DNA from: Hymenobacter oligotrophus
GTDB taxonomy: Bacteria > Bacteroidota > Bacteroidia > Cytophagales > Hymenobacteraceae
Length of the DNA: 64,000 bases
Assembly (NCBI RefSeq): GCF_003574965.1
Contig: NZ_CP032317.1
Span: forward strand, 1,488,001 to 1,552,000
Direction of reading: 5' to 3'
Both the position numbers and the translations under genes were made by a program. Numbering within the stretch: position 1 is the first letter of the stretch; every line of letters begins with the position of its first letter. Of the stretch, positions 1,593 to 54,705 are shown one piece after another. Below the pieces are notes generated by a model that saw only the letters and a list, made by a program, of their open reading frames with translations, ran no database searches and was not told the DNA's origin.

Positions 1593-1690
1593 GTTAGTAC
1601 CGAGTACTGAGATATGAGAAGTGAGACCCGACTGGCCTTTCGACCAAAGTCTAACGTCTCACATCTCAATTCTCAGGTCTAACATTTAGG
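1593..1690. repeat. heptamer-built inverted repeat between fsa and the 67-residue gene
   Basis: The left arm reads as consecutive 7-bp units GTTAGTA, CCGAGTA, CTGAGAT, ATGAGAA, GTGAGAC (1593-1627). The right arm from 1649 reads GTCTAAC, GTCTCAC, ATCTCAA, TTCTCAG, GTCTAAC, ATTTAGG. The two arms are inverted copies with mismatches (CTGAGAT.. at 1607-1627 pairs with 1656-1676). The last unit runs into the stop codon of fsa. An RNA copy would form a long hairpin between the two genes. Confidence 0.85.
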
Positions 1691-2342
1691 CGTTTACGCG
1701 CTTGTGGTCGGCCAGGAAAGTGGCGAGGCCTTTGTCGGTAAGCGGGTGGCTGAGCAAGCCCGTAATCACGTTGAGCGGGCAGGTTACCACGTCGGCCCCG
1801 ATTTCGGCGCACTGAATGAGGTGCGGCACGTGGCGCAACGAGGCGGCCAGCACTTGCGTGGGGTAGCCGTAATTGCCGAAGATGTTCACAATTTGCTCGA
1901 TCAGCTGCAGGCCGTCGTGGCCGATATCGTCGAGGCGGCCCACAAACGGCGACACGTAGGTAGCACCGGCTTTGGCAGCCAGCAGGGCTTGGCCGGCCGA
2001 GAAAATCAACGTGCAGTTGGTTTTGATGCCGTTTTCGGAGAAGTGCTTGATGGCCTTGATGCCGTCGCGGATCATGGGCACTTTCACCACGATGTTGGGG
2101 TGCAACTCGGCCAGGGCTTCGCCTTCGCGCACAATCTCGTCGAATGTGGTACCAATTACTTCGGCCGAAACGTCGCCATCCACCAGCTCGCAAATGCGCT
2201 TGTAGTGCGCCATTACGTTGTCGTGCCCGCCGATGCCTTCTTTTGCCATCAACGAGGGGTTGGTGGTAACGCCGTCGAGCACACCCAGCTCCACGGCTTC
2301 CTGAATGTCCTTCAGGTTGGCGGTGTCAATGAAAAACTTCAT
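1686..2342 (-). CDS. fsa: fructose-6-phosphate aldolase (transaldolase-like)
   Basis: The 218-residue protein has the compact size of the TalC/MipB/FSA class of transaldolases. TTNPS at residues 26-30 and the Schiff-base lysine in VVKVPM (Lys87) are in their usual places, and the start [10 protein letters not shown] is characteristic. The enzyme class either interconverts fructose 6-phosphate with dihydroxyacetone and glyceraldehyde 3-phosphate or acts as a pentose-phosphate transaldolase in the cytosol; sequence reading alone does not separate the two activities. Translation starts at 2342 just upstream of the SRP RNA region. A repeat element follows its stop codon. Confidence 0.9.
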
Positions 2343-2445
2343 CCGGAAAAGCTTAAAGCCCTAAAAACAAAAGATGCCCCAAAGCTAACCGTTTGTTGGC
2401 GGCGAAGGAAACGAACCTTCGCCTCGGGTAGTTGGGGCAGGGACA

Positions 2446-2541
2446 AAAAAAAGCGAACCAGTATCGCACCGCTCAACCACCTACCCTTGCTACCTTCCGG
2501 TCCTGGGGGAGTTCAGCAGGAGCTGGTCGTACTGATTCGCC
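2446..2541 (-). ncRNA. ffs: signal recognition particle RNA, small bacterial type (4.5S)
   Basis: On the minus strand the apical domain IV motif CAGGACCGGAAGGTAGCA is present, matching the conserved loop that binds Ffh. The ends pair: GCGAATCAGTA at 2540-2530 with TACTGGTTCGC at 2463-2453, with one G-U pair. A run of eight T residues follows (2452-2445), giving a terminator-like end. The resulting RNA of roughly 90 nucleotides fits the small SRP RNA. A TAnnTTTG promoter lies five bases upstream of the first paired base region. It would guide membrane-protein ribosome complexes together with Ffh and FtsY. Confidence 0.93.
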
Positions 2542-2545
2542 GTTG

Positions 2546-2578
2546 CAAAGGTAACACGCCGGGCCGCGGATTTGCAAA
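2546..2578 (-). promoter_or_regulatory. Bacteroidota-type promoter of the SRP RNA
   Basis: On the minus strand TTTG (2578-2575) is followed after 21 bases by TACCTTTG (2553-2546), matching the -33 TTTG and -7 TAnnTTTG elements known for the primary sigma factor of Bacteroidota. The position is right for transcription to start at the first base pair of the SRP RNA stem. Confidence 0.8.
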
Positions 2579-2600
2579 CCCAAGCGTGTTTTTTCTGGTT

Positions 2601-3326
2601 TTAGGGGTTAAAAGGCAGCAGGCGGAGTGCCATGCCAAAGCTCAACTGGCTCACGTAGTGCACAAAGCTGTACTCGCGGTTGTCGAGCTTTATTTCGGTG
2701 GCGGCTTTGGTGAGGCCGCGCTCGTATCGTGCCGTGAGCAGCACCCGGCCCAGCTCGTAGCCCATGCCGGCTTGCACCGCTAGGCCGTGCCGGCGCATGC
2801 TGTGGTTGATGCTGCTCACGATGCGCAGTTCGTAATCCTGCTCGGCGCGTTCGTAAGCGGTTGGGATGCGCACCGCAAACACGGGCCCGCCCAACACGCG
2901 CAGCCGCTTGCTTAGGCGGTAGCCCACGGGCACAGCAACGTTAAGCCGCTGCCAATCCTGCGCCGATGCCATCGACCAGAAGTCGCCAGTGGTGGGCTGC
3001 TGGGCGGTGTTGTTGATGTGGTGCCAGCTTTGGCTGCGCGAATAAGCCAACTCGGGCTGCACAAACCAGCGCCGCTCGGGCCCGCCAAAGTTGTGGCGCG
3101 TCCAAAACCCAATACGAAAGCCCGCCGAGGGCGTGGTGAGGCGCGGAATAATCTGGTACTGGCCCACCACAAAGCCCGGCTCGGGGTTTGTCACCCGAAA
3201 CAAATCGTGGCCCATAAGCAGGCCACCTTGCCAAGCCGCCGGGGCGCCGGTGGCGGTGCTATCGGGCAGCGTTTGAGCCCACGAAAACACGGGCGAGCAA
3301 AAAAGGAGAAGTAGAAGTTTTTTCAA
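2601..3326 (-). CDS. secreted outer-membrane beta-barrel-like protein
   Basis: Read from a TTG at 3326 the protein is about 241 residues and starts with a good signal peptide (KKLLLLLFCSPVFSWAQ). The rest alternates aromatic and polar residues and ends in a phenylalanine-rich strand region, as in small Bacteroidota outer-membrane barrels of the PorT/OmpW type. No enzyme motif is visible. An in-frame ATG at 3455 would add 43 residues before the signal peptide, which looks unlikely for an exported protein; no Shine-Dalgarno sequence decides between them. Its ligand is unknown. Confidence 0.65.
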   Translation of the reverse strand: MKKLLLLLFCSPVFSWAQTLPDSTATGAPAAWQGGLLMGHDLFRVTNPEPGFVVGQYQIIPRLTTPSAGFRIGFWTRHNFGGPERRWFVQPELAYSRSQSWHHINNTAQQPTTGDFWSMASAQDWQRLNVAVPVGYRLSKRLRVLGGPVFAVRIPTAYERAEQDYELRIVSSINHSMRRHGLAVQAGMGYELGRVLLTARYERGLTKAATEIKLDNREYSFVHYVSQLSFGMALRLLPFNP

Positions 3327-3536
3327 GCAACAGGAGGTAAAGCGGAGTTGGGGGTATTCTGTAAAAAAACTAATTCTGCCCGCACCATGCAACGACAAAA
3401 CTCCGTGTACCCGCTGTTTATCAATAAATTGAAACAAGCCATTGGTACCATCCAAGTTTGGTACTATCGAACGATGCAGCCTGCAACCGTGCGTGGCGTG
3501 GGTGCCGGGTTTTGCGGCGAACCAGGCACCTAGGGG

Positions 3537-3568
3537 TTGGATAGCTCGGCTCTGGCGCCCTACCTTTG
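3537..3568 (+). promoter_or_regulatory. promoter of guaA, three bases from the start codon
   Basis: TTG at 3537-3539 is separated by 21 bases from TACCTTTG at 3561-3568, a full match to the Bacteroidota consensus. The guaA ATG begins at 3572, only three bases after the -7 element. This predicts a transcript with almost no leader. Confidence 0.7.
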
Positions 3569-3571
3569 CCC

Positions 3572-5104: not shown

Positions 5105-5122
5105 GCAGCAGCAAATGAGTTG

Positions 5123-5154
5123 TAAAGCCGCATCGGGAAACCGGGGCGGCTTTA
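5123..5154 (+). terminator. stem-loop terminator after guaA
   Basis: TAAAGCCGC and GCGGCTTTA form a perfect 9-bp stem with a GC-rich loop, 19 bases after the guaA stop. The 3' side has few T residues, which is common for Bacteroidota terminators. Confidence 0.65.
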
Positions 5155-5282
5155 CTTCATGTATTTTACCAGACTAGTAAGCTCAAGCCAAGCATGCTTC
5201 GTTTCGCTTGGCGCCTTCCGCAGGTAATCATCTGAAAGCAAGACACCACTTCGCTGCTTATCACCAAAGTTGGCAAAGCCCT

Positions 5283-5290
5283 TATCTTTG
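5283..5290 (+). promoter_or_regulatory. TAnnTTTG promoter element upstream of the secreted protein at 5339
   Basis: TATCTTTG matches the -7 consensus and lies 48 bases before the ATG at 5339. I see no convincing -33 element at the right distance. Confidence 0.5.
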
Positions 5291-5338
5291 CTTTGGTGCC
5301 GAATATTGGCAATCCCCCTTTTTGTCGACCTCTGACAA

Positions 5339-6097: not shown

Positions 6098-6100
6098 GCC

Positions 6101-6805: not shown

Positions 6806-7134
6806 GCGCCGCCTTTCAGCAACTCCTCGGCCTCCAAAAACAGCGCTGTGCAATCGAGCAGCTCCACGAGCTGCGTCAGCTCGGCGAGGGTGAACACCAT
6901 GGCCATGCGCGTAGCGGGCGTGGGTACGGCAATGCAGCGCGCGTCGGGGTCGCACGGGGGGCGCGAGCTGGTGGTGCACTGCCGGTAGGTGCTGGCAATG
7001 CGCGTGCGAAAATCGGCCAGCTCGGCTGGGGTAAGCGCCAGCCCTAGGTTGCCAAAGCATAGATGCACGAAACCGGCTGCCCGGGGGCAACGGGCCGTGT
7101 ACCCAAAGGTGTTGTGGTGAAGTAGCTGCGCCAT
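6802..7134 (-). CDS. small conserved Bacteroidota protein downstream of the iron-uptake genes
   Basis: From the ATG at 7134 the protein is 110 residues. It starts MAQLLHHNTFGYTARCPRAAGFVHLCFGN and contains LTPAELADF and a C-terminal LTQLVELLD. This resembles short uncharacterised Bacteroidota proteins (possibly the DUF6686 group; I am not certain of the number). Cysteines at CPR, LCF, QCTT, PPCD and DC could hold a metal, but spacing is irregular. A start at 7212 would overlap the upstream PepSY gene and is less likely. It lies 37 bases behind that gene, suggesting one transcript. Confidence 0.65.
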   Translation of the reverse strand: MAQLLHHNTFGYTARCPRAAGFVHLCFGNLGLALTPAELADFRTRIASTYRQCTTSSRPPCDPDARCIAVPTPATRMAMVFTLAELTQLVELLDCTALFLEAEELLKGGA

Positions 7135-7171
7135 ACGAATCAGCGAGGGTAAACGCGTAGCAAAACACGGC

Positions 7172-26039: not shown

Positions 26040-26051
26040 GTTCCTCTATAG

Positions 26052-26146
26052 CCTGTCATCCTGAGTGAAGCGAAGGACCTTACCACGCGAGATAGTAATT
26101 ACTACCTAGGCGTGATAAGGTCCTTCGCTTTGCTCAGGATGACAGG
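26052..26146. repeat. GTCATCCTGAG-type inverted repeat with GATAGTAA core
   Basis: The 37-bp arms (26052-26088 and 26110-26146) start CCTGTCATCCTGAG and include GCGAAGGACCTTA; they pair with only about three mismatches. The loop holds GATAGTAATTACTACC (26091-26106). It lies between hemL and the next co-directional gene. The arm family is known as an interspersed palindrome in many bacteria. Confidence 0.9.
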
Positions 26147-26250
26147 CGAGAGCAAGATGACAGATAAAGGATAACAGCCACATCAGCACCAAATTCCGCC
26201 CGCTCCGGCAAGGAATCAAATAAAGCGCTCCATCAATAGGCTCAGCAGTT

Positions 26251-26258
26251 TACCTTTG
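26251..26258 (+). promoter_or_regulatory. promoter -7 element of the gene at 26285
   Basis: TACCTTTG lies 26 bases before the ATG at 26285. Confidence 0.55.
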
Positions 26259-26284
26259 CCCGGAAAACTGTTTGCCTGTTGCCC

Positions 26285-27178
26285 ATGCCTTACCGTTACC
26301 GTTTTGGGTTTTGGAGCTTGCTGCTAGTGCTGCTGATTGTGCCGATGGGGTTGCGTGCCCAATCCGAGAACACCGCTGCGCAAAACAAGCAACTCTTCGA
26401 CCGCGCCGTAGACGAAATCAACTTCCGCACGATGGAAACCGTCTACGACAAGTCCTTTACGCGCCGCAAGTACCCCGTAACCCTGCGCACGGCCAAAGCC
26501 CGCAAGGAGTTCGACGACTACGCCGGCCGCGACGACCTGAAAACGCTGTTCCGCAACTACAACAGCGTGGCCGAGCGGTACAAACAACGTTTCGGCAAAG
26601 GCCGCACCGATTTAGCCGAGTTTGAAAAGCAGCTGAACAGCGTGCTGGTCGACCGCAACTTCGAATTCTTCATCCGGGTGCTCCCGCGCGACGAGCGCGT
26701 GGCGCTTATTCACTCGCTGCAGCGCTACATCAAGCAAGCCAGCGCCCAGTTCAACGCCTCCCAGGACCCCGCCCCCGAGGAGCTGATGGCCGATGCGGCC
26801 AACGTCCCCCCCGCCGATGTGGATGCCCAGGCCGAAGAGCCTACTGCCAAGCCGCTCGAAGATCCGCAGCCCAGCCCCGAAGAACTCACGGAGCCCACCC
26901 CGAGCACCCGGCCCACCGGCCGCACCTTCGGCGAAACCGCCCCGCGCCCCGCGCACGATTGGCTCGACTACACCACGCTGCTTTGCTCGGTGTTTTCGCT
27001 GGCCCTGATGCTGTACCTCACCATGTCGGTTATTCCGGGCATGCGGGCTCAGATAGAGGCCCTCGGCGCCCAGCCCGACTACGAGGAGGAAACTGCCGAC
27101 GAACCTGCCGAGGGTGCCCCCAAACGCCGCACCGCCATGGTGCTGCCCACCGACCGATACGAAGACGACGAAAATTAA
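26285..27178 (+). CDS. exported, membrane-anchored protein of unknown function
   Basis: A protein of about 297 residues with a signal peptide (MPYRYRFGFWSLLLVLLIVPMGLRAQ). A helical, charged domain follows (NKQLFDRAVDEINFRTMETVYDKSF, ARKEFDDYAGRDDLKTLFRNYNSVAERYKQRF), then a Pro/Glu-rich linker (about 165-215). A single membrane helix (LDYTTLLCSVFSLALMLYLTMSVIPGM, about 228-254) and an acidic cytosolic tail complete it. I know no function. It could sense or tether something in the periplasm, which is inference. The dcd gene follows, separated by a heptamer inverted repeat. Confidence 0.75.
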   Translation: MPYRYRFGFWSLLLVLLIVPMGLRAQSENTAAQNKQLFDRAVDEINFRTMETVYDKSFTRRKYPVTLRTAKARKEFDDYAGRDDLKTLFRNYNSVAERYKQRFGKGRTDLAEFEKQLNSVLVDRNFEFFIRVLPRDERVALIHSLQRYIKQASAQFNASQDPAPEELMADAANVPPADVDAQAEEPTAKPLEDPQPSPEELTEPTPSTRPTGRTFGETAPRPAHDWLDYTTLLCSVFSLALMLYLTMSVIPGMRAQIEALGAQPDYEEETADEPAEGAPKRRTAMVLPTDRYEDDEN

Positions 27179-27291
27179 TTAATAATGAACAATTAATAAT
27201 GAATAATTAAGGCCTAAGAAGGGCATTCGTGCTACTTCTACTCTGCGTCAATTATTCATTACTAATTGCTCATTATTAATTATTAATAGAC
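27174..27291. repeat. heptamer-built inverted repeat before dcd
   Basis: Left arm units: ATTAATT, AATAATG, AACAATT, AATAATG, AATAATT (27174-27208). Right arm units: AATTATT, CATTACT, AATTGCT, CATTATT, AATTATT (27250-27284). Two kinds of heptamer alternate, giving a 14-bp superperiod. The element starts on the stop codon of the upstream gene and ends just before the dcd ATG. Confidence 0.9.
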
Positions 27292-27296: not shown

Positions 27297-27833
27297 ATGA
27301 TTCTTACCGACGAGCAAATTCTGGCCGAGATGGAGCGCGGCACCATCGTAATTGAACCGTACGACCGCGCTTGCCTGGGCACCAACTCCTACGATGTGCA
27401 CTTGGGCCGCTACTTGGCCACATACCGCGACCACGTGCTCGACGCGCGCAAGCACAACCAGATTGACGTGTTTGAGATTCCGGAAGAAGGCTTCGTGCTC
27501 ACCCCCGAAACCTTGTACCTGGGCGTAACCGAGGAGTACACCGAAACCCACGCGCACGTGCCTTTCTTGGAAGGCAAAAGCTCTGTGGGCCGCCTCGGTA
27601 TCGACATTCACGCCACGGCAGGCAAAGGCGACGTAGGCTTCTCGAACACTTGGACGTTGGAAATCAGCGTAACGCAGCCCGTACGCATTTACCGCGGCAT
27701 GCCCATTGGCCAGCTCATCTACTTTGCGGTGGAGGGCGCCATCCAAAATTACTACAACCGCAAGCCCAACGCCAAGTACAACCAGCGCACCGACAAGCCC
27801 GTGGAGTCGATGATGTGGATGAACAAATTTTAG
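27297..27833 (+). CDS. dcd: dCTP deaminase
   Basis: A 178-residue trimeric enzyme of the dUTPase/dCTP deaminase fold. It deaminates dCTP to dUTP, the precursor of dTMP. MILTDEQILAEME, NSYDVHLG (about residue 25), EGKSSVGRLG (about 94-103, catalytic and nucleotide-binding) and DVGFSNTWTLE (about 113) are conserved family features. Length matches the family. ATG at 27297 directly follows the repeat element, so no Shine-Dalgarno sequence is present. The protein-level call is firm; whether it is bifunctional (dCTP deaminase/dUTPase) cannot be seen. Confidence 0.95.
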   Translation: MILTDEQILAEMERGTIVIEPYDRACLGTNSYDVHLGRYLATYRDHVLDARKHNQIDVFEIPEEGFVLTPETLYLGVTEEYTETHAHVPFLEGKSSVGRLGIDIHATAGKGDVGFSNTWTLEISVTQPVRIYRGMPIGQLIYFAVEGAIQNYYNRKPNAKYNQRTDKPVESMMWMNKF

Positions 27834-28933: not shown

Positions 28934-28982
28934 GGCAAAAAGACGGTTGAAAGTCGTCCGGTAAGTGGCGAGTAAAAAACGG

Positions 28983-29089
28983 CTGTCATCCTGAGCCCAA
29001 GCGAAGGACCTTTTCACGCCCGAACAACACGGGGCTGGGTAGTTACTATCCGACGTGAGAAGGTCCTTCGCTTGGGCTCAGGATGACAG
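28983..29089. repeat. GTCATCCTGAG-type inverted repeat between dnaN and gldC
   Basis: Arms of 36 bp (28983-29018, 29054-29089) begin CTGTCATCCTGAGCCC and differ at one position. The loop holds GGGTAGTTACTATCCGACG (29038-29055), which is the inverse of the core seen at 26091 and 35690. Confidence 0.9.
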
Positions 29090-29108
29090 ATGTATTGCTG
29101 GCGTACGA

Positions 29109-35592: not shown

Positions 35593-35631
35593 TCAGCGGA
35601 ATGTGCAGTGATGAGTAGAGAACGGTAAGCT

Positions 35632-35778
35632 CCCCTCCTCAGATGAGGAGGGGACGCGGCAGTTTACTGCCGCTGGGGTGGTTGAAGGGCGTCGGATAGT
35701 AACTTCTACCCGGTGCAAGTTGTGCAGCCGAGGTCAACCACCCCGGCCTTCGGCCACCCCTCCTCATCTGAGGAGGGG
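35632..35778. repeat. long inverted repeat between gldA and gldF with GATAGTAA core
   Basis: Outer palindromes CCCCTCCTCAGATGAGGAG (35632-35653) and CCCCTCCTCATCTGAGGAG (35757-35778) flank inner arms GGGGTGGTTGA (35675-35685) and TCAACCACCCC (35734-35744). A small hairpin GCGGCAG/CTGCCGC (35657-35673) is nested. The loop holds GTCGGATAGTAACTTCTACC (35691-35710), like the core of the elements at 26052 and 28983, although the arms are quite different. Confidence 0.9.
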
Positions 35779-35789
35779 AATTGGTCGTT

Positions 35790-37694: not shown

Positions 37695-38474
37695 TTGGTA
37701 AAAGCCGCGCAAGATAGGGCCCGGCCGTGGGTAAGGGCATACGCAGGCAAGGCCTTGCTGTTGGGAGCACCGCTGCTGCTCCTAGGTTGCCGCAAAGACC
37801 AGGAAGGTGACTGCTTCAAGAGCAGCGGCCCCGTCACCACCGAGCGCCGCGAGCTGGCAGCTTTTCATGTGCTGCGCCTCTACGACAACGTGGAAGTAAC
37901 CGTGGTGCAGGATACCGAAACCTACGCCAAGGTGCGCACCGGCCGCAATTTGCAGGAAGACTTGAAGCTGAACGTGCAGGACGGCACGCTCACCATCAGC
38001 AACACCAGCCGCTGCAACTGGGTACGCCGCTACGATGTGCCGCGCCAGGTAACGCTGCACGTGCCGCGCCTCACCGATGTGTTTCATGTGGGCGAGAAAA
38101 CCATGCGCACCGAAGGCACCTTCCTGCAGGACACACTATTTTTGCACCTCTCCCGCGCCGGCGACCTAGAGTTCAACGTGGAGTGCAAGTACCTGTGGGT
38201 TGATTTGTACGAGCTGGGCGACATGAAACTCAGCGGCCAGTCGGACGAACTCATAGCTACCGTCGGCGACCTAGGGCGTTTGTTCGCCAAGGACCTTACC
38301 ACCAAGCGCGCCTCCGTACACCTCGATAAACTCAGCGACGGCGACGCGCACGTGCGCACCCTCGATTTCCTAGGTGCCACGGTAGCCGGCACCGGCACGC
38401 TGTACTACAGCGGCCCGCCGGCGCAGAAGGACGTGAAAGTGACAGGCAAGGGCAAAGCGGCGGCAGTGCAATGA
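37695..38474 (+). CDS. head GIN domain (DUF2807) lipoprotein
   Basis: About 259 residues if started at TTG 37695. The lipobox LLLLGC (about residue 31) and the following acidic residues mark an outer-membrane or inner-membrane lipoprotein. The body shows repeated short beta-strands (LAAFHVLRLYDNVEVTVVQD, VQDGTLTISN, GDMKLSGQSDELIATVGD) of the putative auto-transporter adhesin, head GIN domain. Proteins of this type are common and uncharacterised in Bacteroidota. The start is uncertain: an ATG at 37638 overlaps the divergent SDR gene, so I prefer the TTG. Confidence 0.75.
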   Translation: MVKAAQDRARPWVRAYAGKALLLGAPLLLLGCRKDQEGDCFKSSGPVTTERRELAAFHVLRLYDNVEVTVVQDTETYAKVRTGRNLQEDLKLNVQDGTLTISNTSRCNWVRRYDVPRQVTLHVPRLTDVFHVGEKTMRTEGTFLQDTLFLHLSRAGDLEFNVECKYLWVDLYELGDMKLSGQSDELIATVGDLGRLFAKDLTTKRASVHLDKLSDGDAHVRTLDFLGATVAGTGTLYYSGPPAQKDVKVTGKGKAAAVQ

Positions 38475-38569
38475 GCAAGGAGCAATGAGCAATGAGCAAT
38501 GAGCAATGAGGCTACGCCCGGCTTTTGGGCAGGTTACTCCAATTGCTCATACTTAATTGTTCATTAAGC
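38473..38569. repeat. heptamer-built inverted repeat between convergent genes
   Basis: Left arm: GAGCAAG followed by GAGCAAT four times in tandem (38473-38507), then GAGGCTA. Right arm: ATTGCTC, ATACTTA, ATTGTTC, ATTAAGC (38542-38569). The arms are imperfect inverse copies. It is the most regular of the heptamer elements and ends at the stop codon of the following SDR gene. Confidence 0.9.
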
Positions 38570-39285
38570 TAAATATCCCCCAGCTGCGGGCGCATCAGGA
38601 TTTCCTCAATTACCGCTTGCGGCGAGAGGCTGTAGGCACCGTACACGGCTTCGGCCACGTCTTCGGCTTTCATAAAGCGTTCGGCGGGCAAGTCTACGCC
38701 TTCCCAGCTGGCAGTTAAAGTAGCCCCGGGCAAAATAGCCGTAACGCGCAGGTTGCTGTGTTTTAGCTCTTCGCGCAGGTTCTTCGTCATGCCATAAAGG
38801 GCAAACTTGGCTACACCGTATGCCCCGCCGTTGGGGTACGCCGTAACGCTGGCCGTGGAGCACATCGTGAAGATATGGCCGCCCCCCTCCTGCTCGAGCA
38901 TGTGCGGCAGCAAGCCGCGCGTAACGTCATAAGCACTGAGCAGATTTACCGCCAGCATTTCGCGCATAACGGAGCCATCGGCGGCGTCGTCTTGCAAGCG
39001 GCCGGGGGTAAAATACCCGGCGTTGTTTACCAGCACATCAACGCTGGTACCTAGGCCCAGCACAAAATCCACGAAGCGGCGGGCCTCGTTGGCACGGCTT
39101 AAATCAACGGGCAGGGCGTGCAGCGGCGTTTGCGGAAAGCGCGCCTGCAAATCGGTGCGCAGCGCCTCGATACTATCGGCCGAGCGCGAACACGTGACCA
39201 GCTGGAAGCCGGCTTCGGCAAATCGAATTAAAATTGCCCTTCCAATGCCCTTGGTGCCACCCGTTACTACAATTGTTTTCTGCAT
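38569..39285 (-). CDS. short-chain dehydrogenase/reductase
   Basis: A 238-residue SDR with TGGTKGIG (about residue 9), VNNAG (about 88), MCSTASVTAYPNGGAYGVAKFALYGM containing the Ser and YGVAK active-site residues (about 145-160). It is distinct from the other two SDRs in the window. A role in polyol, ketone or glycan metabolism cannot be decided. The ATG at 39285 is chosen over an upstream extension that overlaps the divergent mlaE region. The 5' end has no visible promoter. Confidence 0.88.
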   Translation of the reverse strand: MQKTIVVTGGTKGIGRAILIRFAEAGFQLVTCSRSADSIEALRTDLQARFPQTPLHALPVDLSRANEARRFVDFVLGLGTSVDVLVNNAGYFTPGRLQDDAADGSVMREMLAVNLLSAYDVTRGLLPHMLEQEGGGHIFTMCSTASVTAYPNGGAYGVAKFALYGMTKNLREELKHSNLRVTAILPGATLTASWEGVDLPAERFMKAEDVAEAVYGAYSLSPQAVIEEILMRPQLGDI

Positions 39286-39381: not shown

Positions 39382-40113
39382 ATGGTCAAAGTTTTCGGCC
39401 AATATCTGCTTTTCCTGCAGAGCATGCTCGTCCGCAAAGAACGCGTGCGCGTGCTCTGGAACCGCACCCTCGACGAAGCCGTGAGCATCGGCATCGATTC
39501 GGTGTTCATCGTCAGCATTGTAGCGGCCTTTATCGGTGCCGTAACGTGCGTGCAAATTGCCTACAACCTCACCAACCCGCTTATTCCGAAGGCCACCATC
39601 GGCTTTATGGTGCGCGAAATGACCATCCTGGAATTGGCTCCCACCATCACCAGCATTGTGCTGGCTGGCAAAGTAGGCTCCAGCATTGCCGGCGGGCTGG
39701 GCACCATGCGCATCACCGAGCAAATTGATGCCCTGGAGGTAATGGGCATTAACTCCACTTCTTACCTAGTGTTTCCGCGCATCCTGGGGGCCATCATTAC
39801 GTTTCCGTTGCTGGTAATCCTGGCCATGGTACTCTCAATCCTAGGTGGTTATCTGGCCGGTACGCTCTCGGGGGCCTTGTCAGCGCAGGAATACATCGAA
39901 GGCATCCGCGACGCCTTCATCCCCTACAACATCGCGTTTGCGCTGATTAAATCGGTGGTGTTTGCCTTCTTGGTGTCGTCCATTTCGGCGTACCGCGGCT
40001 TCTTTACCGAAGGCGGCGCGCTGGAGGTTGGCGCCAGCAGCACCACGGCCGTAACCCACTCCATTATTGCCATCCTCGTCGGCGACTTTGTGCTGGCTTA
40101 CACGCTTTTGTAA
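39382..40113 (+). CDS. mlaE: MlaE-type phospholipid ABC transporter permease
   Basis: The 243-residue protein has five or six hydrophobic segments and the MlaE/YrbE signature region GFMVREMTILELAPTITSIVLAGKVGSSIAGGLGTMRITEQIDALEVMGIN (about residues 82-130). It is the permease of the Mla system that moves phospholipids between the outer and inner membranes. I chose the ATG at 39382 (MVKVFGQYLLFLQSMLVRKE). mlaF follows, after a repeat. No MlaD gene adjoins in the window, so the substrate-binding partner lies elsewhere. Confidence 0.92.
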   Translation: MVKVFGQYLLFLQSMLVRKERVRVLWNRTLDEAVSIGIDSVFIVSIVAAFIGAVTCVQIAYNLTNPLIPKATIGFMVREMTILELAPTITSIVLAGKVGSSIAGGLGTMRITEQIDALEVMGINSTSYLVFPRILGAIITFPLLVILAMVLSILGGYLAGTLSGALSAQEYIEGIRDAFIPYNIAFALIKSVVFAFLVSSISAYRGFFTEGGALEVGASSTTAVTHSIIAILVGDFVLAYTLL

Positions 40114-40199
40114 TAGGTTTTAGGTATTGACACTTAGGTTTTAGGGCGCTCGTGCGCACTACTCCAAAAACCTAATTCACTGATTCCTAAGTCCTCTAC
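40114..40199. repeat. heptamer-built inverted repeat between mlaE and mlaF
   Basis: Left arm units TAGGTTT, TAGGTAT, TGACACT, TAGGTTT, TAGG (40114-40145). The right arm (40164-40199) has CCTAA/CTGA/CCTAA/CCTCT spaced by 8, 7 and 7 bases and pairs with the left arm imperfectly. It begins at the mlaE stop and ends at the mlaF start. Confidence 0.8.
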
Positions 40200-40203: not shown

Positions 40204-41010
40204 ATGATTGAAGTACACAACGTTCATAAGAGCTTCGGCGATTCGCCCATTCTCAGGGGCATTACCTGCACTTTCGAAACGGGCAAGTGCAACCTGGTGC
40301 TGGGCGGTTCGGGCACGGGCAAATCGGTGCTGCTCAAATGCATCGTGGGCTTGTTGAAGCCCGACATCGGCTCCATCACTTTCGACGGCACCATTTTCAC
40401 GAACAACAAAATTGAAATCCGGCAGGAAATCCGCAAACAGATCGGGATGCTGTTTCAGGCTTCGGCGTTGTTCGACTCCATGAACGTGTTCGAGAACGTA
40501 GAATTCCCGCTGCGGATGCTTACGCCCGACATGAGCAAGGAGGAGCGCCGCGACCGGGTGGAGTTTTGCTTGAAGCGCGTGGGCCTCGAAAACGCCGGCC
40601 CTAAAATGCCCTCTGAGTTATCGGGCGGCATGAAAAAGCGCGTGGGTATTGCACGGGCCATTGCGCCCAATTGCACCTACCTGTTCTGCGACGAGCCCAA
40701 CTCCGGCCTCGACCCGCTTACCAGCATCAAAATCGACGAGCTGATTTACGAAATCACCCACGAGTACGGCATCACCACCGTCATCATCACCCACGACATG
40801 AACTCGGTGGTGGAAATCGGCGACCATATCGTGTTTTTGCACAAGGGCCTGAAGCTGTGGGACGGCACCAAAGACGAAATCCTCAACGCCCAAGTGCCCG
40901 AGCTCAAAGACTTCATTTTCAGCAGCAGCCTGGTGCGCGCCGCCAAAAAAGTGGAGCAGGAAGGCGGCACCATCGAAACCAACGTGGGCGAACCGATCCA
41001 GGGCGAGTAA
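40204..41010 (+). CDS. mlaF: MlaF-type phospholipid ABC transporter ATPase
   Basis: A 268-residue ATPase with Walker A GGSGTGKSVLLKC (about residue 36), signature LSGGMKKRVGIARA (about 143) and Walker B YLFCDEPNSGLDP (about 160). The MKKR after the signature and DEPNSGLDP are typical of MlaF. It energises MlaE for lipid transport. The gene directly follows mlaE; the C-terminal tail (AAKKVEQEGG) is charged. Confidence 0.93.
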   Translation: MIEVHNVHKSFGDSPILRGITCTFETGKCNLVLGGSGTGKSVLLKCIVGLLKPDIGSITFDGTIFTNNKIEIRQEIRKQIGMLFQASALFDSMNVFENVEFPLRMLTPDMSKEERRDRVEFCLKRVGLENAGPKMPSELSGGMKKRVGIARAIAPNCTYLFCDEPNSGLDPLTSIKIDELIYEITHEYGITTVIITHDMNSVVEIGDHIVFLHKGLKLWDGTKDEILNAQVPELKDFIFSSSLVRAAKKVEQEGGTIETNVGEPIQGE

Positions 41011-41851: not shown

Positions 41852-42478
41852 TTACTCCTTGCCGCCGTTGCGCTTGTTCAATTCGTCGCGGATTTTAGCC
41901 GCCTTCTCGTAGTCTTCGCGCTCGAGTGCCTGGGCCAGCATCTTGGTCAGCTCGTCGAGCGACACTTGCCCGCTGGGTTCGCGGGTTTCGGTGGCCTCGG
42001 GGCGGGTGCTGCCGGTTTCGTCGTCATCGTCGTCATCGTCGTCGTCCGACTCGGCGCCCTCGTCCAAGTCCGACAAAATGATGCCGGCTTCGCTCATCAC
42101 GCTTTCAACCGTATAAATCGGAACCCCGAAGCGCAAGCCAATGGCAATGGCATCGGAAGGCCGCGAGTCCAGCTCAAACGTGTTGGCGCCGTCGGTGCAC
42201 ACGATTTTCGAGTAGAACACGCCTTCTTTCAGGTCGGAAATCAGCACTTCGATAATGCTCACGTTTACCTGCTCGGCAAACGACTTGAACAAATCGTGGG
42301 TAAGCGGACGGTTCGGGTTGATTTTCTCGATCTGGATGGCAATGCTCTGCGCTTCGAACATGCCGATAATGATGGGCAGGCGCCGGTTGCCGTGCCGCTC
42401 GCCCAGGATTAGAGCAAACGACCCCGACTGCGATTGGCTCGACGACAAGCCCAGTATTTCGAGCTGAATTTTTTTCAA
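41852..42478 (-). CDS. bifunctional-nuclease-domain (DUF151) protein with UVR motif
   Basis: A 208-residue protein. Residues 1-135 are a BFN domain (KIQLEILGLSSSQSQSGSFALILGERHGNRRLPIIIGMFEAQSIAIQIE, DSRPSDAIAIGLRFGVPIY); this fold in plants and bacteria has been reported to cut single-stranded DNA or RNA. An acidic linker with nine consecutive Asp residues (about 142-152) leads to a C-terminal UVR motif (LTKMLAQALEREDYEKAAKIRDELNKR) like that of UvrB/UvrC. BFN-UVR fusions are common in Bacteroidota; their exact role is uncertain. It lies behind etfA, after a repeat. Confidence 0.88.
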   Translation of the reverse strand: MKKIQLEILGLSSSQSQSGSFALILGERHGNRRLPIIIGMFEAQSIAIQIEKINPNRPLTHDLFKSFAEQVNVSIIEVLISDLKEGVFYSKIVCTDGANTFELDSRPSDAIAIGLRFGVPIYTVESVMSEAGIILSDLDEGAESDDDDDDDDDETGSTRPEATETREPSGQVSLDELTKMLAQALEREDYEKAAKIRDELNKRNGGKE

Positions 42479-42481
42479 GGG

Positions 42482-42618
42482 ACTTGGGTGCTTAGGGTCT
42501 GGGGGGCTGGGGTAAATACGAAACCTGGGGACTTACGGCCGTGCACCGGGCGCGTTGCAGCCTGTTGCAACGGCTGTGGGTGTTTGCGGCCCTAAGTCCC
42601 AAGCTCCTACGTCCCTAG
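42482..42618. repeat. heptamer/octamer-built inverted repeat upstream of the BFN gene
   Basis: The left arm runs in about 8-bp units (ACTTGGGT, GCTTAGGG, TCTGGGGG, GCTGGGGT). The right arm has CCCTAAGT, CCCAAGCT, CCTACGT, CCCTAGCT. GGGGACTTACGGCC near 42537 pairs with GGCCCTAAGTCCC near 42588. It fills the gap to etfA. Confidence 0.75.
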
Positions 42619-43592
42619 CTCAGGTCCTTAACGGCCTGGGTCAGCTTGGGCAGCACGTCGAACACGTCGCCCACAATGCCGTAATCGGCCGCTTTGAAGA
42701 ACGGTGCCTCGGGGTCTTTGTTGATTACTACAATGACTTTGGAGGAGTTAACGCCCGCTAAGTGCTGAATAGCGCCCGAAATGCCGCAAGCAATGTACAG
42801 GTTCGGCGAAACGGTGATGCCGGTTTGGCCCACGTGCTCGTGGTGGGGGCGCCAGTCAACATCGGATACGGGTTTGGAGCAGGCCGTAGCGGCACCTAGG
42901 GCCTTAGCCAGCTCCTCGATGAGGTGCCAGTTTTCGGGGCCTTTCATGCCGCGGCCGCCCGATACCACCTTGTCGGCTTCGGGCAGCGGTACGCCGCCGG
43001 TTTGCTCCTGCATGATTACCTGCTTGGGCGCGTCGGCAAAGTCGGCATCGGCCAACTGCGCCGAGAACGACTGCACTTGCGCGGTTTGGCCGGCGTTGTG
43101 CAGGGCCTCAATGCTGTTTTTCTTAACGGCAATGATTTTGCGGTCGTTTACCAGCACCACGTCGGAGAAGGCCTTGCCCGAGTAGGCACCGCGCTTCACC
43201 GTAAACTTGCCGCCCTCTACGCGGGGCAACTCCACCACGTTGGTGGCCAGGCTGGCCTGCAGGCGCACGGCCAGGCGCGAGCCTACCGAGGTGCCGATGT
43301 TGCTGTTGGCCAGCACAATTACCTGGGCCTGCTCCTGCTTGGCGGCGGCCGCGATGAGCTTGGTGTAGGCGCCGTTTACAAATTCTTTCAGGCGGGCATC
43401 GTTGTCGTACAGCACTTTGCCAATGCCTTGCTCACCAAGGCTGGCCAGGCTGGCTTCCGAGGCTTCGCCCACGGCAACAGCTGTAGCGGTGGTACCTAGT
43501 GCCTGGGCTACTTGTGCCCCGTACGAGGCCACTTCGAGCGAAGACTTTTTTACTTCGCCCTTATCGCATTCTACTACTACGAGTACAGACAT
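42615..43592 (-). CDS. etfA: electron transfer flavoprotein alpha subunit
   Basis: The 325-residue subunit has the FAD-binding C-terminal domain with VVSGGRGMKGPENWHLIEELAKALGAATACSKPVSDVDW (about residue 210-250) and GQTGITVSPNLYIACGISGAIQHLAG (about 262-287), the conserved ETF-alpha features. With etfB it takes electrons from acyl-CoA dehydrogenases and passes them to an oxidoreductase at the membrane. The etfB gene lies upstream on the same strand behind a repeat element. The ATG at 43592 gives MSVLVVVECDKGEVKKSSLE. Confidence 0.95.
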   Translation of the reverse strand: MSVLVVVECDKGEVKKSSLEVASYGAQVAQALGTTATAVAVGEASEASLASLGEQGIGKVLYDNDARLKEFVNGAYTKLIAAAAKQEQAQVIVLANSNIGTSVGSRLAVRLQASLATNVVELPRVEGGKFTVKRGAYSGKAFSDVVLVNDRKIIAVKKNSIEALHNAGQTAQVQSFSAQLADADFADAPKQVIMQEQTGGVPLPEADKVVSGGRGMKGPENWHLIEELAKALGAATACSKPVSDVDWRPHHEHVGQTGITVSPNLYIACGISGAIQHLAGVNSSKVIVVINKDPEAPFFKAADYGIVGDVFDVLPKLTQAVKDLS

Positions 43593-43602
43593 TTTCGGAG
43601 AG

Positions 43603-43713
43603 GTTAGAAGTTAGAGCTCAGAGCTAAGAAAGGGTTTGCAAAGCGCCTCAGTGTCAAGAACCAACGTGGCAATACTTGGTTCTGAGCTCTAATATCTCAG
43701 TTCTGAAATTAGA
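43603..43713. repeat. heptamer-built inverted repeat between etfB and etfA
   Basis: Left arm units GTTAGAA, GTTAGAG, CTCAGAG, CTAAGAA (43603-43630). Right arm units GTTCTGA, GCTCTAA, TATCTCA, GTTCTGA, AATTAGA (43679-43713). The right arm ends on the etfB stop codon. Confidence 0.85.
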
Positions 43714-44446
43714 TAACTTTGGCTTCGTTGCGCAGCAAACGAATCAGCTCGCCGGCGTTTTCGGCTTCGATTAGCTTTACGCCTTGCTTTTTGGGCGGCA
43801 GGGCGTACTCCACTACTTCGGTTGCGGCGCCCTGGCCCGTGGCTTCCACCACTTTCAGCGGCTTGGTGCGGGCCGTCATGATGCCGCGCATGTTCGGGAT
43901 ACGGGGTTCGCACATCGGCTCCTGGCACGAAACCACGAAGGGCGTTTGCACCTCCACGATTTCCTTGCCGCCCTCGATTTCGCGCTCCAGCGTAGCCGAG
44001 TTGCCGCTCATGTCTAGCTTCATGGCAGGGGCCACCGTCGGGATGCCGAGCAGCTCGCCTACCATGCCGTGCACCTGGAAGCCGTTGTAGTCGATGCTTT
44101 CTTTGCCCATCAGGATGACGTCGTAGCCACCGTCTTTGGCCACGGCAGCAATTTGCTGGGCCACGAAGAACGCGTCGGTGGGTTTGGCATTCACGCGGAT
44201 GGCGTCGTCGGCGCCAATGGCCAGGGCCTTGCGGATGTTGGGCTCGGTATCGGCCTCGCCTACGTTGAGTACCGTAACGGTGCCGCCGAGTTGTTCCTTG
44301 AGCTCGATGGCGCGGGTGAGGGCGTATTCATCCCAAGGGTTAATCACAAACTGAACGCCAGCCTTGTTCAACTCCTTGTTATCGGGCGTGAACGTAATTT
44401 TGGTGGTGGTGTCGGGAACGTTGCTGATGCAAACGAGGAACTTCAT
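43709..44446 (-). CDS. etfB: electron transfer flavoprotein beta subunit
   Basis: A 245-residue protein, MKFLVCISNVPDTTTKITFT, with NPWDEYALTRAIELKEQ (about 37), ILMGKESIDYNGFQVHGMVGELLGIPTVA (about 115) and the ETF-beta signature VVSCQEPMCEPRIPNMRGIMTARTKPLKV (about 168-198). It holds the AMP or second cofactor of the ETF heterodimer. It is the first gene of the etfBA pair, with a short upstream gap shared with the divergent TPR gene. Confidence 0.95.
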   Translation of the reverse strand: MKFLVCISNVPDTTTKITFTPDNKELNKAGVQFVINPWDEYALTRAIELKEQLGGTVTVLNVGEADTEPNIRKALAIGADDAIRVNAKPTDAFFVAQQIAAVAKDGGYDVILMGKESIDYNGFQVHGMVGELLGIPTVAPAMKLDMSGNSATLEREIEGGKEIVEVQTPFVVSCQEPMCEPRIPNMRGIMTARTKPLKVVEATGQGAATEVVEYALPPKKQGVKLIEAENAGELIRLLRNEAKVI

Positions 44447-49140: not shown

Positions 49141-49175
49141 ACACAAAGAGCGCCCCATTGGGGCGCTCTTTGTGT
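49141..49175. terminator. bidirectional terminator
   Basis: ACACAAAGAGCGCCCC and GGGGCGCTCTTTGTGT pair perfectly over 16 bp with an ATT loop, between convergent genes. Confidence 0.9.
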
Positions 49176-49196
49176 TGTTGTCGCTACTTGCGGGCA

Positions 49197-49955: not shown

Positions 49956-49977
49956 GGTGCTGAGCGGAGTTTACGGG

Positions 49978-52900: not shown

Positions 52901-53505
52901 TCGAGGAACACGGTGTCGTCGCCGAAGGCCTTTTTGGCTTCGTTGCGCGCCTCAAAAAAGCCTTTCTCCAACTGCTCGTCGTCGCGGATTACGCGCATGC
53001 CGCGGCCGCCGCCGCCGGCCGCCGCTTTCAGCATCACGGGGTAGCCAATTTGGTGGGCTTCGTCGCGGGCTACCTCGTAGCTTGTAAGGGGTTGTTGGCT
53101 GCTTTCGATGATGGGCACCTGGCAGCGCACGGCCACCTCCTTGGCGCGCACTTTATCGCCTAGGGCCTCCATCACCTCGGGCCGCGGGCCCACAAACGTA
53201 ATGCCCTCCTCGCCGCATCGGCGGGCGAAGGTGGCGTTTTCCGACAGAAAACCGTAGCCTGGGTGAATGGCATCGACGCCGTTGGCTTTGGCCACCCGCA
53301 AAATCTCCTCTATGTCGAGGTAAGGCTTCAGCGGGTCCTCGTCGCGGCCCACTTGGTAGGCCTCGTCGGCCTTGTAGCGGTGCAACGAGTAGCGGTCCTC
53401 GTAGGTGTAAATCGCGACGGTCTGGATGCCTAGCTCGGTGGCGGCGCGCAGCACGCGAATCGCAATTTCACCGCGGTTCGCGACGAGTAGTTTGCGGATG
53501 TTCAT
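49978..53505 (-). CDS. pyc: pyruvate carboxylase
   Basis: The 1175-residue single-chain enzyme carries, in order, the biotin carboxylase (MNIRKLLVANRGEIAIRVLRAATELG; ATP-grasp KAAAGGGGRGMR near residue 160), carboxyltransferase (TDTTFRDAHQSLLATRMRSFDM near 540; CIKDMAGLLKPYAA) and biotin-carrier domains (IEAMKMETT; biotinylated Lys about 1139). It converts pyruvate to oxaloacetate with bicarbonate and ATP and so refills the citric acid cycle, fitting a genome with icd. The ATG at 53505 is chosen; an upstream frame adds unconserved residues. It is a complete, fused form. Confidence 0.96.
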   Translation of the reverse strand: MNIRKLLVANRGEIAIRVLRAATELGIQTVAIYTYEDRYSLHRYKADEAYQVGRDEDPLKPYLDIEEILRVAKANGVDAIHPGYGFLSENATFARRCGEEGITFVGPRPEVMEALGDKVRAKEVAVRCQVPIIESSQQPLTSYEVARDEAHQIGYPVMLKAAAGGGGRGMRVIRDDEQLEKGFFEARNEAKKAFGDDTVFLEKFVERPKHIEVQLVADTHGNIIHLYERDCSVQRRYQKVVEVAPSLNLPDHMRHLLYEYSLRLGKAVGYNNVGTVEFLVNPEHDRIYFIEVNPRIQVEHTVTEMITGIDLIKTQLHIADGRRLSDPEIGLGSDVKPLKIGYAIQCRITTEDPENDFKPDYGTIVAYRSAGGFGIRLDQGSVYQGVKISPFFDSLLVKVSAHAPTLEGAAQKMQRTLDEFRVRGVRTNIQFLQNIIAHHEFVAGQANVDFIKDHQELFKFKPRLDRGTRLLEFLGDLIVNGNADVKGHVDPKKELPKPKLPQVNHVAGWQAASGSFQPNNEPGWAVTPPLSAVPPGTKQRLTDLGPEGFAQWLRNDPLIHYTDTTFRDAHQSLLATRMRSFDMLKVADRYARQHPQTFSLECWGGATFDVAMRFLKEDPWDRLAKIREAVPNILLQMLIRGANGVGYKAYPDNLTERFVQQAWETGVDVFRIFDSLNWMKGMEACIGFVRNKTQGLAEAAICYTGDILDPKRNHKYNLEYYLRLAKQIEDAGAHILCIKDMAGLLKPYAATELITALRETVSMPIHLHTHDTSSLQPATYLKAVEAGVDVIDVALGSLSGLTSQPNFNSVVEMLRGTERHREYDQHSLNEFSNYFETVRDYYYPFESGLKAGTSEVFQHEIPGGQYSNLRPQAAGLGLLDKFELIKETFAEVNELFGDIVKVTPSSKVVGDMALFLVSNNLTTEDVLTKGHTISFPESVRELFRGDIGQPEGGWPHELQKIILKDEQPFTDRPNEHLKPIDFDKEWERFQEKFGPGARFTDLLSWLLYPKVFEQYWKHLQQYGDVSVVPTRVFFYGLKPGEETIIDIARGKSIIVRLQSVGTVNDDGCRTIFFTLNGQTRNLEIRDRSVEVKTVSNPKADKANPRQIGAPLQGLLSKVLVESGQKVKRNTPLFIIEAMKMETTITAPNDASVHLVNLNEGTLVNADDLVLTLGEN

Positions 53506-53826
53506 AACTCGGTTGTGGTAGTGGAGGAATGCAGGGATTGGTCCGAAGCTACGTAAAACAAGAAGCTTCCGTCGAGCTTGCCGGCGGGCCAACTCGGCAA
53601 TATTGCGCAGTTAATTTATACTAACTAAGCAAGATCATCTTGACTTAAAGCAATTTATATAGGCCGCAAAATTTTTCATGCGCGAGGTACCCAGCCAGCC
53701 GAATTGGCTATTACACAACAATTTGGTAACACCGCCGCTTGATTTCGAGGCGGCAGCGCCTAGGTGCCAGCAAACCTTACCGCCACGAGGGGGTTGTTTC
53801 GGGGTTCTTCAACCCCAACCTACCGC
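53506..53826. other. divergent intergenic region before pyc and the SDR at 53827
   Basis: Contains a TAGCTTCG element on the minus strand (53551-53544), a possible pyc promoter of TAnnTTTG type with one change, and a 13-bp palindrome CAAGATCATCTTG at 53630-53642. There is an AT-rich patch near 53640-53685. No other signal was seen. Confidence 0.45.
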
Positions 53827-54540
53827 ATGGATTTCTCCGGCAAAACCATTCTGGTCATCGGCGCCTCATCGGGCATCGGCTTGGCAACGGCCCAATTGCT
53901 TGGGCAGCAAGGCGCCACGCTCATCACGGCTTCGCGCCACCAATCGGATGAGCTGCAAGCCCTAGGTGCCACCCACCTGCCGCTCGATGTTACGCAGTTT
54001 GAGGCCGCTGCTTTGGAGGCCCTGCCCGAGGTGCTGCACGGCGTGGTGTACTGCCCCGGCTCCATTTTGCTGCGCCCCTTCGAGCGCCTAGGTGCCGAGC
54101 AGTTTCGGCAGGACTTCGAGCTGAACGTGGTGGGTGCCGTGCAGGTATTGCAAGCTTGCATGAAGCGCCTGAAGAAAGCCAGCAACGCATCCGTGGTGTT
54201 GTTCAGCACCGTGGCGGCCTACAACGGCATGCCCTTTCACGCCAGCATTGCCACGGCCAAGGCGGCGCTCGAGGGCCTCACCCGCTCGTTGGCCTCGGAG
54301 TATGCCGGCAGCGGCATCCGGGTGAATGCGCTGGCGCCTTCGCTCACCAACACCCCGTTGGCGGCTGCCTTGCTGAACACGCCCGAAAAGCAGGAAGCCG
54401 GGGCCAAGCGCCATCCTTTGCAGCGCGTGGGCCAGCCTACCGACCTGGCCGAAACCGCCGCCTTCCTGCTCTCCGATGCCGCCAGCTTTATCACCGGCCA
54501 AATCATCCGCGTCGACGGCGGGTATTCTACACTGAAATAG
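53827..54540 (+). CDS. short-chain dehydrogenase-like protein lacking the catalytic tyrosine
   Basis: A 237-residue SDR with GASSGIG (about residue 13) and NVVGAVQVLQACMKRL (about 100). The active-site stretch reads HASIATAKAALEGLTRSL (about 142): the lysine is present but the tyrosine four positions before it is isoleucine. The C-terminal FLLSDAASFITGQIIRVDGGYS is standard. It may therefore be a binding or altered-mechanism member; a related subgroup without Tyr exists. The ATG at 53827 fits. The photolyase gene follows after a repeat. Confidence 0.85.
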   Translation: MDFSGKTILVIGASSGIGLATAQLLGQQGATLITASRHQSDELQALGATHLPLDVTQFEAAALEALPEVLHGVVYCPGSILLRPFERLGAEQFRQDFELNVVGAVQVLQACMKRLKKASNASVVLFSTVAAYNGMPFHASIATAKAALEGLTRSLASEYAGSGIRVNALAPSLTNTPLAAALLNTPEKQEAGAKRHPLQRVGQPTDLAETAAFLLSDAASFITGQIIRVDGGYSTLK

Positions 54541-54546
54541 TTGTTG

Positions 54547-54705
54547 GGGCTTAGGGATTAGGACTTAGGGTTTAGTGGTTAAGGCTGGAACGGGCAGTTG
54601 AGCGCCGAGCCAAACCTCAGCGGCTGCTGGCCTCGCAAGCCTGCTTTCAGCAACCTACCAAGCGCCAGCCCACTAAGCCCCAAGCCCTAACACCTAAGCC
54701 CTACC
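54547..54705. repeat. heptamer-built inverted repeat before the photolyase gene
   Basis: Left arm units GGGCTTA, GGGATTA, GGACTTA, GGGTTTA, GTGGTTA (54547-54581). Right arm units CACTAAG, CCCCAAG, CCCTAAC, ACCTAAG, CCCTACC (54671-54705). Every unit is exactly seven bases. The right arm ends one base before the photolyase ATG at 54707. Confidence 0.92.

Follow-up and report, generated by a model that had tools for sequence, protein, structure and literature searches.

Short repeats and hairpins between bacterial genes have been described in several forms. MacGregor (2015) reported intergenic direct repeats of the heptamer TAACTGA in Beggiatoaceae, Cyanobacteria and five Bacteroidetes; in one genome, 169 of 170 sets were direct and one indirect, and in the main genome they lie mostly just upstream of start codons (PMC4679880). 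Repetitive extragenic palindromes (REPs) are high-copy palindromes of 20-40 bp that sort into sequence families (PMC3733652). At the RNA level, selected mRNA structure just past stop codons, termed RTS, has been described across 128 bacteria and, for a synthetic operon in E. coli, tied to re-initiation (PMC7518266). Here we analyse a 64,000-nt window of the Hymenobacter oligotrophus genome (contig NZ_CP032317.1, positions 1,488,001 to 1,552,000; positions below are those of the window unless the contig is named), in which seven intergenic inverted repeats have arms built of consecutive 7-bp units. These heptad elements, or octad elements where the unit is 8 bp, run from one stop codon to the next start codon, mostly between co-directional genes, and recur at some orthologous gaps with their sequence largely replaced.

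Mirrored 7-bp units between stop and start codons

Inverted repeats were present at all seven positions listed in the initial annotation, their arms made of 7-bp units, or of 8-bp units at one (Table 1). All seven were also assigned to the heptad or octad class by a detector that combines a stem with a lag of 7 or 8 nt; their lag matches ranged from 0.53 to 0.79. The initial annotation had octamers at 42482 and partly at 40114; the 42479 element was classed as octad, and that at 40114, the weakest of the seven (lag-7 match 0.53), is a weak heptad/octad. The detector's eighth call, at 60327-60620, is G+C-rich with a lag match of 0.45, and we take it as chance. Lag 7 alone (at least 26 of 40 matches) returned five segments that marked 1593, 27174, 38473 and 54547, with 40114, 42482 and 43603 below this threshold; the window held no such segment at lags 4, 5, 8, 10, 11 or 13, and 2, 1, 1, 2 and 3 at lags 6, 9, 12, 14 and 15. 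By our gene calls, flanking genes are co-directional for six elements and convergent for one (38475-38568).

We then scanned 1.264 Mb of the same genome (the first 1.2 Mb of the contig plus the window), in which a codon-usage script called 968 and 57 genes, respectively, with approximate starts because the calls are our own. In each gap of 40-300 nt (30-400 nt in the ortholog survey) we sought the best-scoring inverted repeat and the lag within it, using self-set thresholds (score 24, arm 18, lag match 0.5); the lag match was lowered to 0.45 for window classification, the ortholog-gap survey and the arm comparison across species. Elements were found in 31 of 404 co-directional gaps (25 heptad, 6 octad), 8 of 136 convergent gaps (4 of these calls resemble terminators that are rich in G+C and periodic by chance) and 1 of 124 divergent gaps, the last being a repeat of GTGACAC-type units at contig position 1061839-1062109. 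Dinucleotide shuffling of the 404 co-directional gaps left no element in any of 8 repeats, so the proposed 7-bp period stood up to the comparison with shuffled sequence. At least 24 of 35 matches occurred at lag 7 in 15 of the 404 gaps, 12 of which also hold an inverted repeat, and in none of the 404 at lags 5, 6, 8, 9, 10, 11 or 13. Over the contig's first 400 kb, the threshold of 26 matches in 40 was reached at 8 sites for lag 7 and at none for lags 4, 8, 11, 13, 16, 17, 19, 20 and 22; there was one site each for lags 5 and 10, there were four for lag 14, and each of the lags linked to codons (6, 9, 12, 15, 18 and 21) gave between 4 and 7.

Placement was assessed in a pool of this genome, five of seven same-genus genomes (G002 and G003 left out), 29 Hymenobacter loci, 20 Pontibacter, Rufibacter, Adhaeribacter or Botryobacter loci and 30 further loci. 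L063, which is the same genome as G004, was left out of the pooled, ortholog, unit and arm counts and kept in the stop-frame count. Elements occupied 123 of the 1096 co-directional gaps, 18 of the 281 convergent ones and 2 of the 327 divergent ones (co-directional versus divergent, p=1.5e-12, a value overstated because the Hymenobacter loci are orthologs of one region and not independent). Every pool contributed co-directional elements: 31/404 in the H. oligotrophus genome, 16/153 in the genus, 47/264 in Hymenobacter, 16/123 in the Pontibacter group and 13/152 in the further loci. In gaps of 80-200 nt the counts were 109 of 686 co-directional, 15 of 148 convergent and 1 of 185 divergent, and length therefore does not account for the scarcity in divergent gaps.

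The hairpins fit closely between the two codons. Element-bearing gaps have a median of 114 nt, with a median loop of 28 nt; the 5' arm starts a median of 6 nt past the first base of the stop codon (within the stop codon itself in 31 of 123) and the 3' arm ends a median of 9 nt ahead of the start codon. Both ends were flush with the codons in 82 of 123 elements, compared with 36 of 213 other inverted repeats, and in gaps of 70-200 nt the portion outside the hairpin was a median of 16% (n=109) versus 39% (n=144). A TTTT near the 3' end (11 of 123 versus 41 of 213) and the promoter-like TAnnTTTG (10 of 123 versus 122 of 634 co-directional gaps without a hairpin) were scarce, but the hairpin leaves little unoccupied gap for either. 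This link to gene ends, the stop-to-start placement mostly in co-directional pairs and the wholesale change of units between species described below had been overlooked in the initial annotation.

Within an element, units follow a mirrored order across the two arms: the mean pairing score was 41.6, compared with 34.0 after shuffling of whole units, and the observed order beat the shuffled mean in 91% of 67 elements. Among 70 elements selected as inverted repeats, 89% had a predicted minimum-free-energy fold in which 60% or more of the 5' arm pairs with the 3' arm. Mean arm G+C is 0.40, and the G-rich arm comes first in 105 versus 16 co-directional, 15 versus 2 convergent and 13 versus 0 low-G+C convergent elements. 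Other convergent inverted repeats, mostly terminator-like, were G-first in 42 and C-first in 85. The first 40 nt past the stop codon contain 14.6% C, compared with 25.8% in co-directional gaps without an inverted repeat; given the G-first order, any RNA from an element would begin with a C-poor arm.

The architecture of mirror-image arms of 7-bp units unites the family genome-wide, and each element has its own preferred version of the unit, both as initially annotated. There are 93 consensus units among the 123 elements, the commonest being GAATTAT (6 elements of four groups); GTTGTCA occurs in 4 H. oligotrophus elements. The units thus form a loose vocabulary. The proposed common motif NTKARNN did not hold up as such: at least 60% of units fit it in only 26 of 88 heptad elements, versus 13.7 expected with unit columns permuted (TKAR, common phase, either strand), and it is a bias, not a defining motif.

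Two ideas about the letters were dropped. Units often contain TGA, TAG or TAA, and since 7 mod 3 = 1 an array of them would stop every frame; on frame counts, all three frames were stopped in only 11 of 31 5' arms and 5 of 31 3' arms of H. oligotrophus and in 15 and 12 of 48 in the Hymenobacter loci, and AGTTGTC-type arms have no stop in the coding direction. A reading of the G-rich 5' arm and of a bias in start codons and Shine-Dalgarno (SD)-like motifs as transcription polarity or avoidance of false starts was withdrawn because arm order is identical on both strands and convergent elements are G-first too. The start-codon and SD-like bias may be the G-first order alone, and the gene caller's choice of starts itself lowers in-frame starts in the 3' arm.

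Recurrence at orthologous gaps with sequence replacement

We next compared gaps between orthologs assigned by reciprocal best hits. How strongly the hairpins recur depends on the site. Among 34 relatives, the etfB-etfA gap (43593) contained a heptad or octad hairpin in 22 and a different inverted repeat in 6; in 5 nothing exceeded the threshold, and in 1 the gap was short. At 40114, 13 of 27 relatives had a heptad or octad hairpin and 12 none, and at 1590 such hairpins were present in 4 of 4 relatives, with other units. Recurrence was lower at 38475 (4 of 22), at 54541 (1 of 4, in G007) and at 27179 (1 of 4, a different unit in G007). The other three relatives at 27179 were classed as none, although in G006 and G001 a short stem rich in G+C, with a T run, can be seen by eye. 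At 42479, 27 of 34 relatives had another inverted repeat, 3 a heptad or octad hairpin and 4 none. Co-directional gaps that are element-free in H. oligotrophus gave 0/4 (15601), 0/4 (17463) and 0/25 (34847, where 10 of the 25 gaps are under 30 nt), with intermediate gaps at 4/22 (36705), 1/26 (35593) and 1/23 (41624).

Where hairpins recur, their sequence is largely replaced. Mean match scores between the two arms of one species were 45.2 (1590), 42.3 (40114) and 40.3 (43593), whereas medians for arms of different species were 15, 12 and 14, near the shuffled means of 10.8, 11.6 and 12.2. The between-species score reached the lower within-species score in 1 of 10, 3 of 91 and 15 of 253 pairs; these were mainly close relatives sharing a unit. 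The etfB-etfA comparison covered 23 species. Inspected by eye in 80 loci, this gap is mostly about 90-130 nt with an inverted repeat in Solirubrum and Hymenobacter, with units such as GAGTTAT, GAATTAT, GGTTTTT, GAACTTA, AATTGGT and GAAGTGA; in L064 it is only 25 nt. Within the genus, one unit type at 43593 is common to H. oligotrophus, G006 and G001 and another to G007, G004 and G005, and at 1590 the H. oligotrophus units are TGAGA-type, those of G007 TTATGAA, those of G004 TGAATTC and those of G006 and G001 ATGTGCTA octads. A close relative also differs in unit number, in the kind of comparison that the initial annotation had proposed: at 38475, H. oligotrophus has five GAGCAA units and G007 three.

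Proposed intercistronic hairpin spacers and their alternatives

The link to gene ends, the fit from stop to start, the few promoter motifs and T runs and the recurrence with turnover are best fitted by intercistronic hairpins. We propose, at about even confidence, that the elements are transcribed spacers kept for their pairing more than for their sequence. The gap between stop and next start would be transcribed, and its RNA would fold during synthesis, packing the ribosome-free gap into a hairpin. Emergence of the G-rich arm before the C-rich arm would spare the transcript a single-stranded, C-rich and G-poor stretch after the stop codon. A gap folded in this way could be shielded from spurious initiation, Rho and nucleases, and the hairpin may hold the next start codon close to the stop codon. 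Rho prefers C-rich, G-poor RNA, and the H. oligotrophus genome encodes Rho, although the link to Rho is a guess. In the gal operon of E. coli, Rho is described as acting at the junction between cistrons if the following gene is not initiated (PMC9239205). Selection would act on pairing more than on letters: units may originate by local tandem duplication or slippage and be copied into the opposite arm by hairpin-templated (template-switch) repair, so that a unit could change while the hairpin persists.

A further proposal, which we advance tentatively and with somewhat less than even confidence, is that self-renewing heptad hairpins are a new class of element, with fixed intercistronic sites, retention for RNA structure and concerted arm evolution that erases sequence similarity between sister species. 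If so, an RNA fold would be conserved with hardly any of its sequence, and methods that discover RNAs from alignments would not see it. Part of the operon gaps of Hymenobacter and its relatives (123 of 1096 co-directional gaps scanned) would hold a functional RNA structure, which homology and covariation searches would miss because sequence is replaced between species while the fold persists. The etfB-etfA junction would offer a natural series of 23 largely unrelated sequences for testing what such a gap requires. The mutational question is also raised of why the unit is 7 bp and how the arms stay mirrored.

Several observations weigh against intercistronic spacers kept for pairing. G-first order is the same on both strands of an inverted repeat and cannot tell RNA from DNA, and the 13 low-G+C elements between convergent genes have no downstream start there. 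Per element, the unit-order test is weak (a median of 17% of shuffles match the observed score, and just 39% of the 67 elements are at 10% or below), and its elements were chosen for pairing; for the same reason, the high within-species arm scores are partly a selection artefact. Unit choice is non-arbitrary, so that letters may matter too: unit pairs differing by at most one base make up 6.9% versus 2.4% with letters shuffled, 68 of 88 heptad elements chain into a single cluster at that distance, and an exact AATTATG 25-mer array occurs in 15 of 395 Bacteroidota genomes (0 in H. oligotrophus), with none for a reversed-pattern control in the 395. The etf genes are only 1-8 nt apart in Pontibacter, Rufibacter and Adhaeribacter loci, and G004 has an empty site at 54541 (TAG-CT-ATG) without the element. 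In the one alignable set, of 10 etf orthologs, RNAalifold predicted 9 pairs, 2 of them with two-sided changes, and its covariation term of +0.16 gave no support. RTS, in addition, has been reported as insulating (PMC7518266).

A mutational, non-adaptive origin is a serious rival and explains the same variability. The elements would be satellites, repeated by slippage, mirrored by template switching and surviving where harmless, mainly in promoter-free gaps downstream of genes; we regard this as possible, although clearly short of probable. It would account for unit identity that varies by locus and species (93 consensus units in 123 elements), for presence or absence at 54547 and the unit-number difference at 38475, and for a mirrored order such as template switching would produce, and promoters in divergent gaps would purge inserts. 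Harmless survival fits less well with a hairpin in the same gap in 22 of 34 relatives when 15601, 17463 and 34847 have 0/4, 0/4 and 0/25, a contrast beside which the intermediate gaps must be noted, or with the flush fit to both codons and the 105-to-16 G-first order. Mobile elements of the REP type or miniature inverted-repeat transposable elements (MITEs) would also explain the empty site in G004 and units that recur at several loci (GTTGTCA in 4 H. oligotrophus elements, GAATTAT in 6). However, the one element searched, as gap 54500-54760 against the whole H. oligotrophus genome, matched only itself and one 37-nt stretch at 84%, and at the single empty site compared by eye, with termini not systematically aligned, there was no target duplication; we consider mobility very improbable.

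Position downstream of stop codons would equally suit intrinsic terminators or attenuators, and the stems with T runs seen by eye at 27179 in two relatives point the same way. Against this, only 11 of 123 elements have TTTT close to the 3' end, arms average 40% G+C and the median loop is 28 nt. An inverted repeat is present in 130 of the 148 convergent gaps of 80-200 nt and a heptad or octad element in 15, so that the elements are rarer where ordinary hairpins are commonest, and the base order of the arms is the opposite (C-first in 85 versus 42 of the other convergent repeats). We therefore judge termination unlikely. Sites acting as DNA, whether protein-binding repeats or cruciforms with roles in the nucleoid, replication or recombination, would be in keeping with a strand-symmetric G-first order that extends to 13 of 13 low-G+C convergent elements, and with non-arbitrary unit letters. 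Yet the 93 units share only a loose vocabulary and no single binding sequence, and near-absence from divergent gaps (2 of 327) is not readily explained in this way; this, too, seems quite unlikely.

Breadth, other hairpins and comparison with known systems

Loci of Hymenobacter, Solirubrum and the Pontibacter group commonly carry this architecture, which is rarer among the other Bacteroidota sampled. Ten further Bacteroidota genomes, 80 kb of each and outside the pooled counts, yielded no elements in six (G056, G009, G019, G024, G060 and G012); the other four had elements in co-directional gaps (G028 in 4/19, G032 in 3/23, G036 in 1/20 and G040 in 1/24), and G028 also in 1 of 5 divergent gaps. 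The matches in G028 and G032 are A+T-rich, and some may be low complexity. In a 200-kb segment of E. coli K-12, none of the 39 co-directional, 9 convergent or 16 divergent gaps held a heptad or octad repeat. Another Bacteroidota genome holds a long perfect AATTATG array with eight overlapping 25-mer matches (G209:C26:49163-49236).

Other hairpins share these gaps. A second family has a fixed sequence (TGTCATCCTGAGC..GAAGGACCTT) and recurs in the gaps at 26040-26317 and 28934-29108 of the window and at contig positions 377913-378121 and 643671-643945, and a similar repeat lies in the etfB-etfA gap of L079, L082 and L085, where relatives carry heptads. In L080 this gap has a non-heptad hairpin with a GTCATTGCGAGGAGG-type repeat. 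An inverted repeat at 35593-35789 is based on CCCCTCCTCAGATGAGGAGGGG and has CCCCTCCTCAGATGA in common with a 66/69-paired inverted repeat at contig position 677177-677440. At contig positions 509408-509506, 128469-128594 and 914804-914904, CGCTGAGG/CGCAGAGG units form hairpins whose period is, by eye, about 10-12; these are perhaps a sister architecture with a different unit length. An Rfam scan of the 64-kb window gave a single match, the Bacteroidales small signal recognition particle (SRP) RNA (RF04183; 2447-2549, minus strand), with no element above the gathering score.

Table 1. Heptad and octad elements of the window; best pairs are given as start, length and pairing (ORF, open reading frame).
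Element	Coordinates	Strand	Arms	Best pair	Flanking genes
Heptad hairpin	1593..1683	-	1649-1683 (5' in transcript) + 1593-1627	1593, 35 nt, 77%	transaldolase 1686-2342 -; 67-aa ORF 1386-1589 -, no Pfam match
Heptad hairpin	27176..27282	+	27176-27213 + 27245-27282, 34/38 paired	27176, 38 nt, 89%	ORF 26318-27178, hairpin starts inside its TAA stop; dCTP deaminase 27297-27833 downstream
Heptad hairpin, convergent	38472..38565	.	38484-38507 + 38542-38565; GAGCAAT array on left	38484, 24 nt, 79%	DUF2807 protein 37755-38474 +; SDR 38569-39285 -
Weak heptad/octad hairpin	40115..40195	+	40115-40145 + 40164-40195 (from detector offsets)	40109, 16 nt, 81%	MlaE permease 39382-40113; ABC ATPase 40204-41010
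Octad hairpin	42478..42616	-	42590-42616 + 42478-42505 (from detector offsets)	42478, 19 nt, 79%; 42525, 17 nt, 88%	etfA 42615-43592 -; bifunctional-nuclease gene 41852-42478 -, start called TTG, uncertain
Heptad hairpin	43599..43704	-	43675-43704 (5' in transcript) + 43599-43628	43599, 30 nt, 77%	etfB 43709-44446 -; etfA 42615-43592 -
Heptad hairpin, TTAGGGC-type units	54547..54701	+	54547-54578 + 54670-54701	54547, 32 nt, 84%	SDR gene 53827-54540; DNA photolyase 54707-56032

Among described systems, the TAACTGA repeats share with the heptad elements the 7-bp intergenic unit and a partial presence in Bacteroidota. They are one fixed, unidirectional heptamer, whereas the elements have mirrored arms with a different unit at most loci (93 consensus units in 123), and are not tandem direct repeats of one sequence. 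REPs and bacterial interspersed mosaic elements (BIMEs) are likewise intergenic hairpins; the heptad elements share just a loose vocabulary of units and, with 93 units in 123 elements and one 37-nt match for the one element searched genome-wide, are not a single palindrome in many copies. An intrinsic terminator also places a hairpin after the stop codon, but its G+C-rich stem, short loop and U run are not those of the heptad elements, 112 of 123 of which have no TTTT near the 3' end and which have long loops, low G+C, the opposite arm order and a location mostly between co-directional genes. We found no description of mirrored heptad hairpins in Bacteroidota in the open-licence literature, which is weak evidence of absence.

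The closest likeness is to RTS, an mRNA structure directly downstream of the stop codon that is recognised by its fold rather than its sequence. RTS is a statistical signal of folding, with no fixed sequence arrangement; the heptad elements, by contrast, have arms of tandem heptads, fill most of the distance to the next start codon with their hairpin and show turnover of sequence at single sites. A stable fold directly downstream of the stop codon is nevertheless predicted for the elements as well. With an evolutionary mode not met in the literature searched, they would represent a variant of the intercistronic RNA hairpin.

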